NCBI RefSeq assembly: GCF_022869165.1
Contig: NZ_CP094929.1
Coordinates: 2,356,001 to 2,420,000, forward strand
Reading direction: 5' to 3'
DNA from: Sphaerochaeta associata
GTDB lineage: Bacteria; Spirochaetota; Spirochaetia; Sphaerochaetales; Sphaerochaetaceae
Length of the DNA stretch: 64,000 nucleotides
Every line of letters begins with the position of its first letter. Position 1 is the first letter of the stretch. The notes under the pieces were generated by a model that worked only from the letters and a program-made list of their open reading frames with translations, was not told the DNA's origin and did not search any database. Shown piece by piece: positions 45,018 through 57,918 of the stretch. A program made the position numbers and the translations under genes.

Positions 45018-45224
45018 GAGGATCTCCTAGGTTGTTTCTGGTATGGAATCCGGGTTGGGAACCTCATGCATTGTCATACAGGGTCCGTAAAAAGGCAACA
45101 AAAATTCGATCCATTCATAATACTAAAATAGTGTATCTTATTTGCTTATATATACTTGCTATATATCCCTCTTTGAGTGATTACTACAGTACGAAGAAAA
45201 ACACACCAAAGAGAGGTAGACGGC

Positions 45225-46130
45225 ATGGAAAAGACAACACGGTTCGGAATCGAGATAGAGATGACAGGCATCACCCGCAAGGACGCAGCCCTGGCTGCCC
45301 AGACGGTCCTCGGTGGAGAGCTGCTCTACGGTGGTTCCTACTACGACACCTACGAACTGAAGACCTTCGATGGCCGCACATGGAAGTTCACCTATGACGG
45401 ATCCATTCGATGCGAAACCAAGACTCGAGGGATCAAAGAGAGTGCATCACGCCTGTATAGCGTCGAGTTGGTCAGCCCGATCCTCACCTACGAGGCTGAC
45501 ATCGAGAACCTGCAGGAGGTCATCAGGGCACTGCGCAAGGCCGGGGCCTTCACCAACAGCTCCTGCGGCATCCACATCCACCTTGATGGACAGGACCACA
45601 CACCACGCTCGATCAGAAACTTCGTGAACATCATCTACGCCCGAAACGACCTGTTCTACAAAGCCCTCGGCATAGAGGCTTCACGGGCACGGTACTGCAA
45701 GAGGATGGACGAGCACCTCGTGGCGACCATGAACCGAGCCAAGCCGACCACCTTCGCCAAGATCGAGAGCATCTGGTACGAAGGCTACCGGGGAAACCGG
45801 GATGCTCACTACCACGAAAGCCGCTACCATTTCTTGAACCTGCACTCATTCTTCCACGGCCACAAAACCGTCGAGCTACGCGGTTTCAACAGCACCCTCC
45901 ATGCCGGAGAGGTCAGAAGCTACATCGTCCTTGCCCTCGCGCTGAACAGCCAAGCACTCTCACAAAGCTCGGCGAGCACCAAGAAGCCCCAAGCCGAGAA
46001 CGAGAAGTTTGCGATGCGCACATACCTCAACCGCATCGGTTTCATCGGCGACGAGTTCAAAGCCTGCCGGGAGCACCTGACCAAGCGCCTCACCGGATCC
46101 GCCGCATGGAGACGGCGGGTTGCCGCCTGA
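45225..46130 (+). CDS. Amidoligase-family enzyme
   Basis: A 301-aa protein of the amidoligase_2 group (glutamine-synthetase fold), enzymes that join amino acids or amines to carboxylates using ATP. Signatures are RFGIEIEMTG at the N-terminus (the E-x-E metal ligands), SVELVSPIL (about 95), CGIHIHLDG (about 125) and HKTVELRGFNSTL (about 235). The start at 45225 is set by AGAGGT upstream. A gamma-glutamylcyclotransferase-like gene and DUF5049 follow, an association described for phage amidoligases. The substrate is unknown: peptidoglycan or a protein tag are both possible. Confidence 0.88.
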   Translation: MEKTTRFGIEIEMTGITRKDAALAAQTVLGGELLYGGSYYDTYELKTFDGRTWKFTYDGSIRCETKTRGIKESASRLYSVELVSPILTYEADIENLQEVIRALRKAGAFTNSSCGIHIHLDGQDHTPRSIRNFVNIIYARNDLFYKALGIEASRARYCKRMDEHLVATMNRAKPTTFAKIESIWYEGYRGNRDAHYHESRYHFLNLHSFFHGHKTVELRGFNSTLHAGEVRSYIVLALALNSQALSQSSASTKKPQAENEKFAMRTYLNRIGFIGDEFKACREHLTKRLTGSAAWRRRVAA

Positions 46131-46210
46131 AAGGGCGACGGATCTGCAACCTGAGGGCGGGACAACCGCCCTTGGGGTGGTAGAAGACCAAGTGAAGGAG
46201 TGTAACAACG

Positions 46211-46657
46211 ATGAAGAAAGTCTATCTGGCCTATGGAAGCAATCTGAACCTCGAACAGATGGGAGAGCGATGCCCCGATGCCGCAGTCATCGGAACAACA
46301 GTACTGCACGATTATCAGCTGTTGTTTCGGGGAGGCCGACATACTGGCGTGGCCACCATCGAGATGAAACGAGGAGCAAGGGTTCCTGTGCTCCTGTGGC
46401 AGATCACCGAGAAGTGCGAGAAGGCCTTGGACCGCTACGAGGGTCACCCCCACCTGTATCGCAAGAAGAAGCTGATGGTGAATCTGGACGGTGATGAGTT
46501 GGTGGCGATGGCCTACGTCATGAACGAAGGACCTCCGCTGGCGATGCCGGATGCATACTATTACTCGACCATCCTTGACGGTTACTACGACTGTGGCTTC
46601 GATGAAGGTATCCTCAAGCAGGCGGTTATGGAATCGATGGAGGCCGCCAATGACTGA
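46211..46657 (+). CDS. Gamma-glutamylcyclotransferase-like (AIG2/GGCT) protein
   Basis: A 148-aa protein. The GGCT fold is marked by VYLAYGSNLNLEQM at the N-terminus (the YGSN substrate loop), LFRGGRHTGVATI, and ALDRYEGHPHLYRKK, which includes the catalytic Glu. GGCT enzymes release 5-oxoproline from gamma-glutamyl amines, so this could undo or edit what the amidoligase next door makes. AAGGAG precedes the ATG. It overlaps the next gene by 8 bp. Confidence 0.9.
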   Translation: MKKVYLAYGSNLNLEQMGERCPDAAVIGTTVLHDYQLLFRGGRHTGVATIEMKRGARVPVLLWQITEKCEKALDRYEGHPHLYRKKKLMVNLDGDELVAMAYVMNEGPPLAMPDAYYYSTILDGYYDCGFDEGILKQAVMESMEAAND

Positions 46658-53954: not shown

Positions 53955-54914
53955 ATGGCATTTTACACAGGAACGGGATCGCGGCTTCAGGCGGGCAAGG
54001 AAAGCTCCTTCGCCCAAGCGGCCAGTCCCACGACACTGGTCGACCTGACCAGCGAGAGCATCAAGGTGGCTGTCGAGAAAGGTGACGAGGGCTCGCTGCT
54101 GGGAAGCAAGACCGCATCAAATAGGGATCTGTTGGCAGTGACGGTGGAGGGCTCGGTGAGCTTCATCCTCCGGCCCGAATCGGCCGGTCTCATCCTGCAC
54201 GCCGCCCTGGGGGGAGAAGACACCTGCGCCCAGGTGGGAGACTCGGAATCGTACACCCACACCATCGGCCTTTGCGATGTGAACGAGGCACTTCCCAGCC
54301 TCACCTTCACCATCGACCGCAAGGCGGCAATCAAGCGCTACGCGGGGTGCACCATCAGCGCCCTCAGCCTGGATTGCGCAGCCGGCGATTATGTGAAGGG
54401 CAGCATAGACATCAAGGGGACCACTGAAGAGAACGGAACCATTGAAGAGGCACTGAAGAGCTTCTCCATCCCCTCGTACCGGTGCACCAATGCGACCTTC
54501 ACGGTCAACGGAAGCACGTACGACATCACCAGCGCATCGTTGAAGATCGACAACGCGCTCGAAAGCTCCCCGCGTACCTATGCCTCGGGCCTGTATGCAG
54601 GCAGGCCCCAGCATGGAAAGAGAGCTGTGACCATCAACTTCGAGATCCCCTACAGCGCCGAGGTGGAAACGCTCAAGAGTTCGTACCTGACCAGCGAGGA
54701 GAACGCTTCTGTTCAGCTGACCTTCTCATCCCCTACCGCAGGGCACAGCATCACCATCACCCTCTCGCATGTAGCGATCAGCGAGGTGGATGCAAATGTC
54801 GGGGGAACGGGCATACTCAGCTCCACCGTTGCAGGCGAGGCACTCAGTGTGGGAGAAGCCGAACCGATAACCATCGTGATCACAGACAAGATTTCCACAC
54901 CCTACGGAGGATAA
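53955..54914 (+). CDS. Major tail tube protein
   Basis: A 319-aa beta-rich protein. It opens with FYTGTGSRLQAGKESSFAQA and contains SLTFTIDRKAAIKRYAGCTI and NATFTVNGSTYDITSASLKI, typical of siphophage tail tube proteins that sense the host through a GxG-rich N-terminus. It is followed, as usual, by the tail assembly chaperone. AGAGGAAACGC precedes the ATG. Confidence 0.8.
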   Translation: MAFYTGTGSRLQAGKESSFAQAASPTTLVDLTSESIKVAVEKGDEGSLLGSKTASNRDLLAVTVEGSVSFILRPESAGLILHAALGGEDTCAQVGDSESYTHTIGLCDVNEALPSLTFTIDRKAAIKRYAGCTISALSLDCAAGDYVKGSIDIKGTTEENGTIEEALKSFSIPSYRCTNATFTVNGSTYDITSASLKIDNALESSPRTYASGLYAGRPQHGKRAVTINFEIPYSAEVETLKSSYLTSEENASVQLTFSSPTAGHSITITLSHVAISEVDANVGGTGILSSTVAGEALSVGEAEPITIVITDKISTPYGG

Positions 54915-54919
54915 GAACC

Positions 54920-55369
54920 ATGTTCATCAAGACAAAACATTATGACACGTGCATACAGAAGGTACGCATCGAAGTGGGAACACTGGTGGGACTGGAGGCG
55001 GACGATGAGGCATACATCGTGCTCAAGGAGCTGCCCACCTTGGAGATGCTCAAGCTGAAGGAAGCCTCCGAGCAGGGGGAGAACCAGACGCTCACCCTAC
55101 TTCGCGACCTGCTTCCCTCAATCCTGGTTGATCACAACTTCTACGAGGATGCGGATGCGAAACGCAAGATGGACAACCGCGAAGTTGCCTCACTGGTGTT
55201 CGAGTCGCTGGATCTGACGGTGAAGGTCGTCAACGAATACACCCATGCCGCTTTTTTTTCCCGTGCGGACACCAGCGGAGGCAGATCGCATCTCTCTGCA
55301 CAGAAGTCTTCAACGGAAGGCGTAGCGCCGAACTCTACCGCGAGTACGGCCACTGGCTCTTCTACATAA
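54920..55369 (+). CDS. Tail assembly chaperone, zero-frame product (G-like)
   Basis: A 149-aa protein, acidic and helical (EIVLKELPTLEMLKLKEA-like opening, LTLLRDLLPSILVDHNFYED), ending at 55369. It occupies the lambda gpG slot between tail tube and tape measure. At residue 111-113 the message runs through eight T residues (55252-55259). Beyond that point the zero frame turns Ser/Thr-rich and low in complexity (SSTEGVAPNSTASTATGSST), the look of a non-functional tail. GGAGG precedes the ATG. Confidence 0.85.
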   Translation: MFIKTKHYDTCIQKVRIEVGTLVGLEADDEAYIVLKELPTLEMLKLKEASEQGENQTLTLLRDLLPSILVDHNFYEDADAKRKMDNREVASLVFESLDLTVKVVNEYTHAAFFSRADTSGGRSHLSAQKSSTEGVAPNSTASTATGSST

Positions 55370-55542
55370 CCGACATCTATCTGCCCTGCTGCGACTCTGA
55401 GAGCGGGGACTTCAGGCACCTGCCATTCGCCGGCAGCCTCATGGACCAGCCGTACATGAGCATGCAGATCCTCAAGCTCATCCAGCTCAACTACCGGCGG
55501 CATTTGCATGAGCAGGCTAAGAAAATGACACAAAAACACTAA
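54920..55542 (+). CDS. Tail assembly chaperone, -1 frameshift product (GT-like)
   Basis: A -1 slip on C-TTTTTTTT (55251-55259) moves ribosomes into a frame open to TAA at 55540. It adds about 95 residues with clear coding character: SLCTEVFNGRRSAELYREYG, HWLFYITDIYLP and YMSMQILKLIQLNYRRHLHE. Total length is about 207 aa. This is the G/GT arrangement known from lambda and most siphophages, where the fusion chaperones the tape measure. Frames and the T8 run are seen directly; the frequency of slippage is not known. Confidence 0.85.
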
Positions 55543-55546
55543 TCAC

Positions 55547-55570
55547 AAGGCGTCCATGGGGCGCCTTTTT
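55547..55570 (+). terminator. Hairpin and T5 between the tail chaperone and tape measure
   Basis: AAGGCG (55547-55552) pairs with CGCCTT (55562-55567) around a CCATGG-containing loop that can pair further, with the T run at 55566-55570. It lies 24 bp before the tape measure ATG, so it would act as a partial terminator within the tail operon. Confidence 0.5.
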
Positions 55571-55593: not shown

Positions 55594-57918
55594 ATGGCAG
55601 CACAAGCGAAAGTCATCATCAAAGGCCAGAACGATATCGGAGGGGCTGTCAAATCGGCCGCAGCCGACCTGGGAAGCCTCAAGGGTGCTGCAACCAAACT
55701 GGGTGGAGTGCTCAAAGGGGCCTTCGCTGCCACTGCGATCATCGCTTCAGTGAAGGCTTTGGGCAATGCAGTATCGGCAACATTCTCCGAGTTCTCCGTA
55801 GCCGAACGATCCTACAAGCAACTCGCACTTGCTCTTGGCGACAGCACCTCGTATGAGAAGGTTACCGCCGTGGTCGAGCGGCTGAGCAGTCAGACCCTCT
55901 CGGGCAAGGGCGATATCGAATCCATGGTCGCCCAGTTGGCCGCGCTGGGCAAGAGTGCCGACGAAATCGAAAGCATCTCCGAGGCTGCGGTATATCTGTC
56001 AAACGTGACGGGCAAGGACCTCAACGGCTCGATGATGAACCTGTTGGATTCGTACACCGGAGCTACCGGAGAGCTGAGGAAGCTTGGCATCGAGCTCGAT
56101 GGCCTCACCAAGGATGAGCTCGCACACGGAGCGGCGGTCGACAAGGTGATCGATAAACTAGGTACCTACTCGGCAATGATGGCTGATGGGGATACCGCCC
56201 AGCACCTGACGAACATGAAGAACACCTGGGGAGACATCCGCCAGCAGGTGGGCGGTATCATCGATTACAACTTCGGTCCGTGGTTGGGAGGCCTCGATGT
56301 AGCCTTCAGCGGCATCAAGACCAACCTGACTGCTATCATCAACTACGTGGGGGCGGTGATGAAGAACCTGCCCTCTGCCTTCAAGCTGACGCTGTCCACC
56401 GTGTGGGAACTGCTCAAGCGTACCTTCGAGTGGGACTCGCTCAAGCAGATCATCACCACCACAGCCCAGAATATCGGCATCGTCATCAGCGCCATGCTCA
56501 AGGCGGTGTTCGAAAGCATTCCCAAGCTGCTGGGCAATGCAGTGGTGGGCATCATCAGCTGGGTCACCTACATCGCGTTGAACATCGAAAGTGCGATCCT
56601 GGGGGCATTCCAGAATGCGATCAACAAGGCGGGGGACAAGATCCAGGGCACCTGGGTGGGAAAGATCTTCGGTTTGGGTGACAAGCTGGCAAACCTTGAT
56701 ATGGGAGCCCAGGCGAGCAAGGATGAGGCGACCTTCTACAAGCAGCAAGCCGACCAGAGCTTCGAGAATCTGGGACCGCTGTTGCGTGATGCGCTCACCG
56801 ATGCGATCGATACCGCCCAGACGGTCGTGCTCAATAGTGCCGACATGGTCTCTTCCCTGTACGGCGATATCGGCCTTGATTTCAAGACTGCACTCGATGA
56901 GATTGTCGCACCTGACCTTGAGGCGATCGCCCAGAAGGCCGATGCGGCGAACCAGAGCAAGCTGCTTTCTCAGATCGCTTCCAGTGGCGAGGGTACGGCA
57001 GCATCCACAGCCGAGACAGCCGAAAACACCAAGCAGACCGACACCCGCATGGGCTCTCAGATCGCCTCGATGCTCAGTGAAGGATTGACAAGTGTGTTCA
57101 CCGGCCTGTTCGGGGACGTCACCGGAGGCCTTATGGGAATGGTGGCCACCGAGATGCTGGGAGGGGTTACCGCGATCATATCAACGTTGCAGCCGATCAT
57201 CGACATCATCTTCAACACCCTCTCTCCCTTGGGCATCCTGCTCACCATCCTCCAAGGGTTCGTCTCGGTGATGGAGCCGGCGCTCACCGCGGTATTCCAA
57301 CCGCTGGTGGACGTGTTCACCTGGATCGGGACCACCTTGGCAAGTCTGTTCCTGCCGGTCTTGGATGTGCTGCACACAGCCTTCGCCTTGGTGGGAAACA
57401 TCCTTATGGCGGTCCTTACCCCTGTATTGCAAAGCCTTGCCCCGGTCTTCCAGGTCATCAGCGGCATCATGATGGCATTCTCACCCATCCTGCTGTTGGT
57501 GGCCAAGGCGTTCACGATCCTCATGAGCCCACTGCAGTACGTCGCGGACCTGTTGTCGTGGCTCGGAAGCTGGGTGCAGTACCTCGGGTCCGTGATTGCC
57601 ACCGCGGCCTACAACCTGGTGCACCCGTTCAGAAAGAAAAGCTATGCATCCAGTCCCGGATCCTTTTCCAGCGACGCCTTCAGCGGTCTTGCCGATCGCC
57701 TGGCAAACATCGATGCGATCGCAGACCAGGGGAACGTGGCAACCGACGCGGTCTCCACCACCACGGCAGTGGGAAACGCAGGGTATCAGGGAGCGACGCA
57801 AGTAACCATCAACATCTACCAGCAGGCGCCGGTCGTCGGCAGCGACGGGATGCGCGCCTTCGCCCAGATGATCCGAGGCGAGTTCGAGCGGCTGGACTAC
57901 TACGGAGTAACAACCTAG
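55594..57918 (+). CDS. Tail tape measure protein
   Basis: A 774-aa protein. The N-terminus (QAKVIIKGQNDIGGAVKSAA) and SVAERSYKQLALALGDSTSYE are typical tape measure openings. Several long hydrophobic segments occur (about 255-340 and 480-690, including GLMGMVATEMLGGVTAIIS), as expected for the membrane-inserting part. Length predicts a medium tail, roughly 115 nm at 1.5 angstroms per residue. The start at 55594 follows AGGGGAACACG. The gene ends with TAG immediately before the next ATG. Confidence 0.9.
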   Translation: MAAQAKVIIKGQNDIGGAVKSAAADLGSLKGAATKLGGVLKGAFAATAIIASVKALGNAVSATFSEFSVAERSYKQLALALGDSTSYEKVTAVVERLSSQTLSGKGDIESMVAQLAALGKSADEIESISEAAVYLSNVTGKDLNGSMMNLLDSYTGATGELRKLGIELDGLTKDELAHGAAVDKVIDKLGTYSAMMADGDTAQHLTNMKNTWGDIRQQVGGIIDYNFGPWLGGLDVAFSGIKTNLTAIINYVGAVMKNLPSAFKLTLSTVWELLKRTFEWDSLKQIITTTAQNIGIVISAMLKAVFESIPKLLGNAVVGIISWVTYIALNIESAILGAFQNAINKAGDKIQGTWVGKIFGLGDKLANLDMGAQASKDEATFYKQQADQSFENLGPLLRDALTDAIDTAQTVVLNSADMVSSLYGDIGLDFKTALDEIVAPDLEAIAQKADAANQSKLLSQIASSGEGTAASTAETAENTKQTDTRMGSQIASMLSEGLTSVFTGLFGDVTGGLMGMVATEMLGGVTAIISTLQPIIDIIFNTLSPLGILLTILQGFVSVMEPALTAVFQPLVDVFTWIGTTLASLFLPVLDVLHTAFALVGNILMAVLTPVLQSLAPVFQVISGIMMAFSPILLLVAKAFTILMSPLQYVADLLSWLGSWVQYLGSVIATAAYNLVHPFRKKSYASSPGSFSSDAFSGLADRLANIDAIADQGNVATDAVSTTTAVGNAGYQGATQVTINIYQQAPVVGSDGMRAFAQMIRGEFERLDYYGVTT

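Follow-up and report, generated by a model that had tools for sequence, protein, structure and literature searches.

The window, meaning the whole stretch of 64,000 nucleotides of Sphaerochaeta associata DNA that was analysed, belongs to a genome consisting of a single 3.55-Mb contig. It contains a tailed-phage prophage with genes for a terminase, a portal, a ClpP-like protease, an HK97-type capsid, a tail tube, a candidate tail chaperone and a tape measure. Just upstream of the prophage terminase, at 45177-46657, an Amidoligase_2 gene (E 2.5e-72) lies beside a gamma-glutamyl cyclotransferase (AIG2-like) gene. According to Pfam and PHROG matches, the chaperone gene is flanked upstream by the gene of the tail tube protein (53955-54914, plus strand; Pfam Phage_tube_2, E 3.6e-33; PHROG 290) and downstream by that of the tape measure protein (55594-57918, plus strand; PHROGs 5493, E 1.3e-7, and 58, E 1.9e-5). 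A GGAGG motif (54906-54910, plus strand), nine bases 5' of the ATG at 54920, probably serves the chaperone gene as ribosome binding site.

Frame 0 of this gene (54920-55369, plus strand) encodes a product of 149 aa, the short form, in which residues 1-113 make up the conserved domain. On the same strand, it crosses a run of eight T (T8, 55252-55259) as GCT TTT TTT TCC; the candidate slip heptamer T_TTT_TTT occupies 55252-55258. The extension in the -1 frame (55258-55542, plus strand), recognized from its open reading frame, its constraint and its relatives, confirms the 95 open codons of the original prediction as 94 residues and a stop. Added to residues 1-113, it gives a predicted long form of 207 aa, which reads HAAFFFPCGHQR across the junction. 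The -1 frame is free of stops from 55132, upstream of the slip site, to the stop at 55540-55542. In a scan of the window, no ORF of at least 80 aa starting with ATG, GTG or TTG was found in it. Thus, the conserved second half lacks a start of its own, as had been claimed. A 132-aa open frame also lies antisense to the junction (55141-55539, minus strand). It is probably a by-product of codon usage; comparable antisense frames are found throughout the gene cluster.

In 12 structural coding regions of the prophage, the T8 at the junction is the only run of at least seven T. Phenylalanine is encoded in these regions by TTC 140 times and by TTT 19 times, and a T8 arises in 0.2% of synonymous-codon shuffles. 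The presence of T8 at the junction is not due to chance.

Relatives and protein-level selection

Relatives were gathered from IMG/VR, a genome collection and related genomes. Both halves are present at 102 loci, corresponding to 38 distinct sequences. In 37 of these 38, the second half follows the first in frame -1, with the switch at the same codon, and none of the 102 loci has both halves in one frame. The halves of L038 and its copies are not in -1 relation; this sequence was discarded, being a decayed remnant in which the first half is disrupted. L074 was discarded too, since it is an unrelated coiled-coil protein that matched by chance. Relatives devoid of the -1 extension or of a slippery run had been named beforehand as evidence that would speak against a frameshift; no intact relative lacks either. 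In L124, L126 and L129, ORFs of matching size, spacing and place surround the chaperone gene.

Among named records, a Sphaerochaeta MAG (L021) comes closest, its first half being 100% identical in the best segment. In several genomes of the same family, the second half survives only as decayed copies that contain stops (L039, L040, L055-L061, L076). These copies are remnants of related prophages. Another relative, with 64% identity in the best segment (L034, 3001-3599), comes from a MAG labelled Oscillospiraceae, which reflects either a wider host range of the phage family or an error of binning.

Selection was analysed in the 17 distinct sequences that align without gaps, using the synonymous fraction of changes in each frame. 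Upstream of T8, this fraction is 0.68 in frame 0 and 0.06 in frame -1. From T8 to the frame-0 stop, it is 0.54 in frame -1 versus 0.17 in frame 0, and past the frame-0 stop 0.66 versus 0.10. Protein-level selection acts on frame 0 before the T run and on frame -1 beyond it, and the constraint found in frame -1 after T8 bears out the earlier impression that this frame is coding. Moreover, the frame-0 tail past the slip site varies in length from 9 to 36 codons among relatives. The T run is conserved across independent assemblies. Together with the poorly constrained frame-0 tail and the constrained -1 frame, this makes it very unlikely that the run was miscounted and really has 7 or 9 bases, a possibility that the original prediction had left standing against itself.

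Slip sites and possible RNA structure

The heptamer U_UUU_UUU (T_TTT_TTT in the DNA) persists in 27 of the 37 distinct sequences, the next base being T or A. It is retained although the phenylalanine codon of the prophage is usually TTC. Variant sites sit at the same place: T_TTT_TTG (L072/L098), A_AAT_TTT (L124), C_CCT_TTG (L100, whose junction sequence was read by hand), G_GTT_TTT (L125-L128), A/C_CTT_TTT (L071, L073) and G_GCT_TTT (L033). In the diverged members L124 and L100, the sites are canonical X_XXY_YYZ heptamers without a long homopolymer. L033, L071, L073 and L125-L128 keep NNU_UUU alone, on theory a weaker site; slippage of a single tRNA-Phe would be the likely route in these members. 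Conservation applies to the heptamer U_UUU_UUU, or to a different slippery site in its place, and the eighth T is not required. Of the expectation that T8 would be conserved in relatives, what stands is the maintenance of a slippery site; T8 itself is not what is conserved. It may tentatively be proposed, at somewhat below even odds, that this is one chaperone family in which the slip site turns over among tandem and single-tRNA types while the frame switch stays fixed at the same codon.

Folding averages and shuffles suggest a possible stimulatory RNA structure 3' of the slip site (55262-55316, plus strand). On average over 22 sequences, the 50-base stretch of highest stability in the gene starts at the slip site (-17 versus a mean of -10.7 kcal/mol), and strong stems occur about 5-12 bases 3' of it in L010, L031, L032, L033 and L036. 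Compared with dinucleotide shuffles, the downstream structure has a combined z of about -4 in nine diverged lineages. Against a synonymous-codon null, however, the excess is gone (combined z -0.6, not significant). Covariation is nearly absent from the consensus fold, and no helix is common to the alignment. In view of this z and of the near lack of covariation, a downstream RNA stimulator is left as suggestive. Such a stimulator need not exist, since no hairpin is predicted at P2-type slip sites (PMC3091744).

Between the chaperone and tape measure genes, a hairpin is followed by a T-rich stretch (55547-55567; AAGGCGTCCATGGGGCGCCTTTTTC). It is kept in close relatives, partly with compensating changes, and shuffles also yield such patterns by chance. 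This putative leaky terminator may lower tape measure expression.

Predicted fold and comparison with known systems

An AlphaFold2 model of residues 1-113 was obtained with a pLDDT of 74. Its first PDB matches in Foldseek, and the first solved structures that it resembles, are the HK97 tail assembly chaperone (2ob9) and YqbN (3klu). The scores of these two are weak (Foldseek E 0.06-0.17, Z 3.6-4.6) and the identity is 9-15%. On realignment, the order becomes 3fgx, 5ir0, 3klu, 2ob9, again with weak scores (Z 5.5 to 3.6); 3fgx and 5ir0 carry the annotation 'uncharacterised'. Viral structure models matching the first domain include several annotated as tail assembly chaperones. The first half is thus predicted to fold like solved tail chaperones, with weak scores that agree with the position of the gene. 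For the second domain, the model predicts three helices (pLDDT 75), and no convincing structural match was found for the -1 half.

Pfam and PHROG scans gave no match for either half of the window's protein and no chaperone family for the diverged members. The latter weakly match DUF5081 (3 members, best 4.6e-6) and phrog_29170 (4 members, best 9e-4), two families to which no function is assigned. A tblastn search of INPHARED with the 207-aa product found nothing; a single match of the -1 half alone was set aside as chance. PDB sequence profiles gave nothing credible.

The gene resembles that of lambda gpG/gpGT in its location between tail tube and tape measure, in its predicted -1 shift late in the first gene and in the common N-terminus of the two expected products (PMC5009743). 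It differs by its slip site, U_UUU_UUU instead of GGGAAAG, by the lack of detectable sequence similarity and by the large share of the gene that the second half takes up (94 of 207 residues). In SPP1, gp17.5/gp17.5* also involve a -1 shift at a T-run heptamer, UUUUUUC, and the two forms have 112 residues in common, against 113 in the prophage (PMC6316719). However, the second part is longer in SPP1 (297 aa in all), and relatedness to the prophage protein family is not shown. T-run slip sites that need no hairpin are likewise present in the tail chaperone genes of P2 (E/E+E') and of P2-like phages such as Smp131: TTTTTTG (T6G) in P2, T7G and T7C in P2-like phages (PMC3931495, PMC3091744). These are P2-like myophages with short proteins (91 and 142 aa), unrelated in sequence to the prophage protein as far as tested. 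The original prediction was correct in contrasting a plain T8 with GGGAAAG, but such a site is not unusual among P2, SPP1 and P2-like phages.

Probable frameshifting, its alternatives and significance

The -1 relation in 37 of 38 sequences, the switch of selection, the conservation of the slip site, the gene order and the predicted chaperone-like fold argue for a lambda G/GT-type programmed -1 frameshift that would give the chaperone gene a short and a long form. To this reading, drawn from sequence, we assign a probability of roughly 0.9. The G/GT position and architecture proposed at the outset agree with the tail tube and tape measure flanks, the -1 second half and, with weak scores, the fold. 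Most ribosomes would stay in frame 0 and produce the 149-aa form. A minority would slip one base back on U_UUU_UUU, where tRNA-Phe in the A site and in the P site alike could pair again with UUU after the shift to frame -1, and would translate 94 further codons to give the 207-aa form. We infer both the slippage in the cell and its efficiency. As a counterpoint, ribosomes of E. coli shift less readily on U_UUU_UUU than on A_AAA_AAG (PMC5009743). In lambda, the two forms are made at about 30:1; the first binds the tape measure protein, and the tail tube protein is bound by the second domain (PMC5009743). If the prophage forms act like gpG and gpGT, the tape measure protein would be coated by the short form, and recruitment of tail tube subunits would fall to the second domain of the long one.

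The long form could also originate in transcription, if RNA polymerase added one U, or dropped two, on T8, so that part of the mRNA encoded it. The window and close relatives do have an 8-T homopolymer, and bacterial polymerases are known to slip on runs of 9 A or T (PMC5009743). Yet distant relatives hold the frame relation with T7, T5, T4, C_CCT_TTG or A_AAT_TTT, which are too short for known polymerase slippage, and the long homopolymer expected of programmed transcriptional realignment is not kept in all members. A polymerase slip of the T5C5 type deletes a base (PMC5009743) and would thus give the +1 frame, which is wrong and short here. Since A_AAT_TTT, C_CCT_TTG and the shorter sites lack a long homopolymer, ribosomal slippage is favored over polymerase slippage as the shared mechanism, and the transcriptional route is regarded as unlikely.

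That the -1 frame is a separate gene, translated from its own start or by reinitiation, is more improbable still. This frame is indeed open from 5' of the slip site, but no ATG, GTG or TTG start precedes the conserved second half, only frame 0 is constrained upstream of the run (a synonymous fraction of 0.06 in frame -1) and a slip site is maintained at exactly the junction. Hardly any weight falls on a broken gene or a sequencing or assembly error, the true gene being then a single frame with one extra T. Homopolymers are error-prone and a few relatives are clearly decayed remnants; against this, the same run and frame relation recur in independent assemblies and diverged phages, the two halves share a frame in no relative, and both frames are under protein-level selection.

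The G/GT arrangement and the T-run slip sites in tail chaperone genes are already known, so that for phage tail biology a known rule is confirmed, not changed. What is new, as far as sequence comparison indicates, is the protein family, whose member in the window is matched in none of Pfam, PHROG and INPHARED, and the range of slip sites that this family contains. An undescribed chaperone family would thereby be added from spirochaete prophages and related viral contigs, the second half of which is likely overlooked by ordinary gene callers. Its slip sites at one fixed codon would be useful for the study of -1 slippage of tRNA-Phe outside the usual model phages. If turnover of the slip site within one family is correct, this family would form a natural series for slip sites moving between tandem and single-tRNA slippage, in which lineage-specific RNA stems perhaps offset the weaker slip sites.
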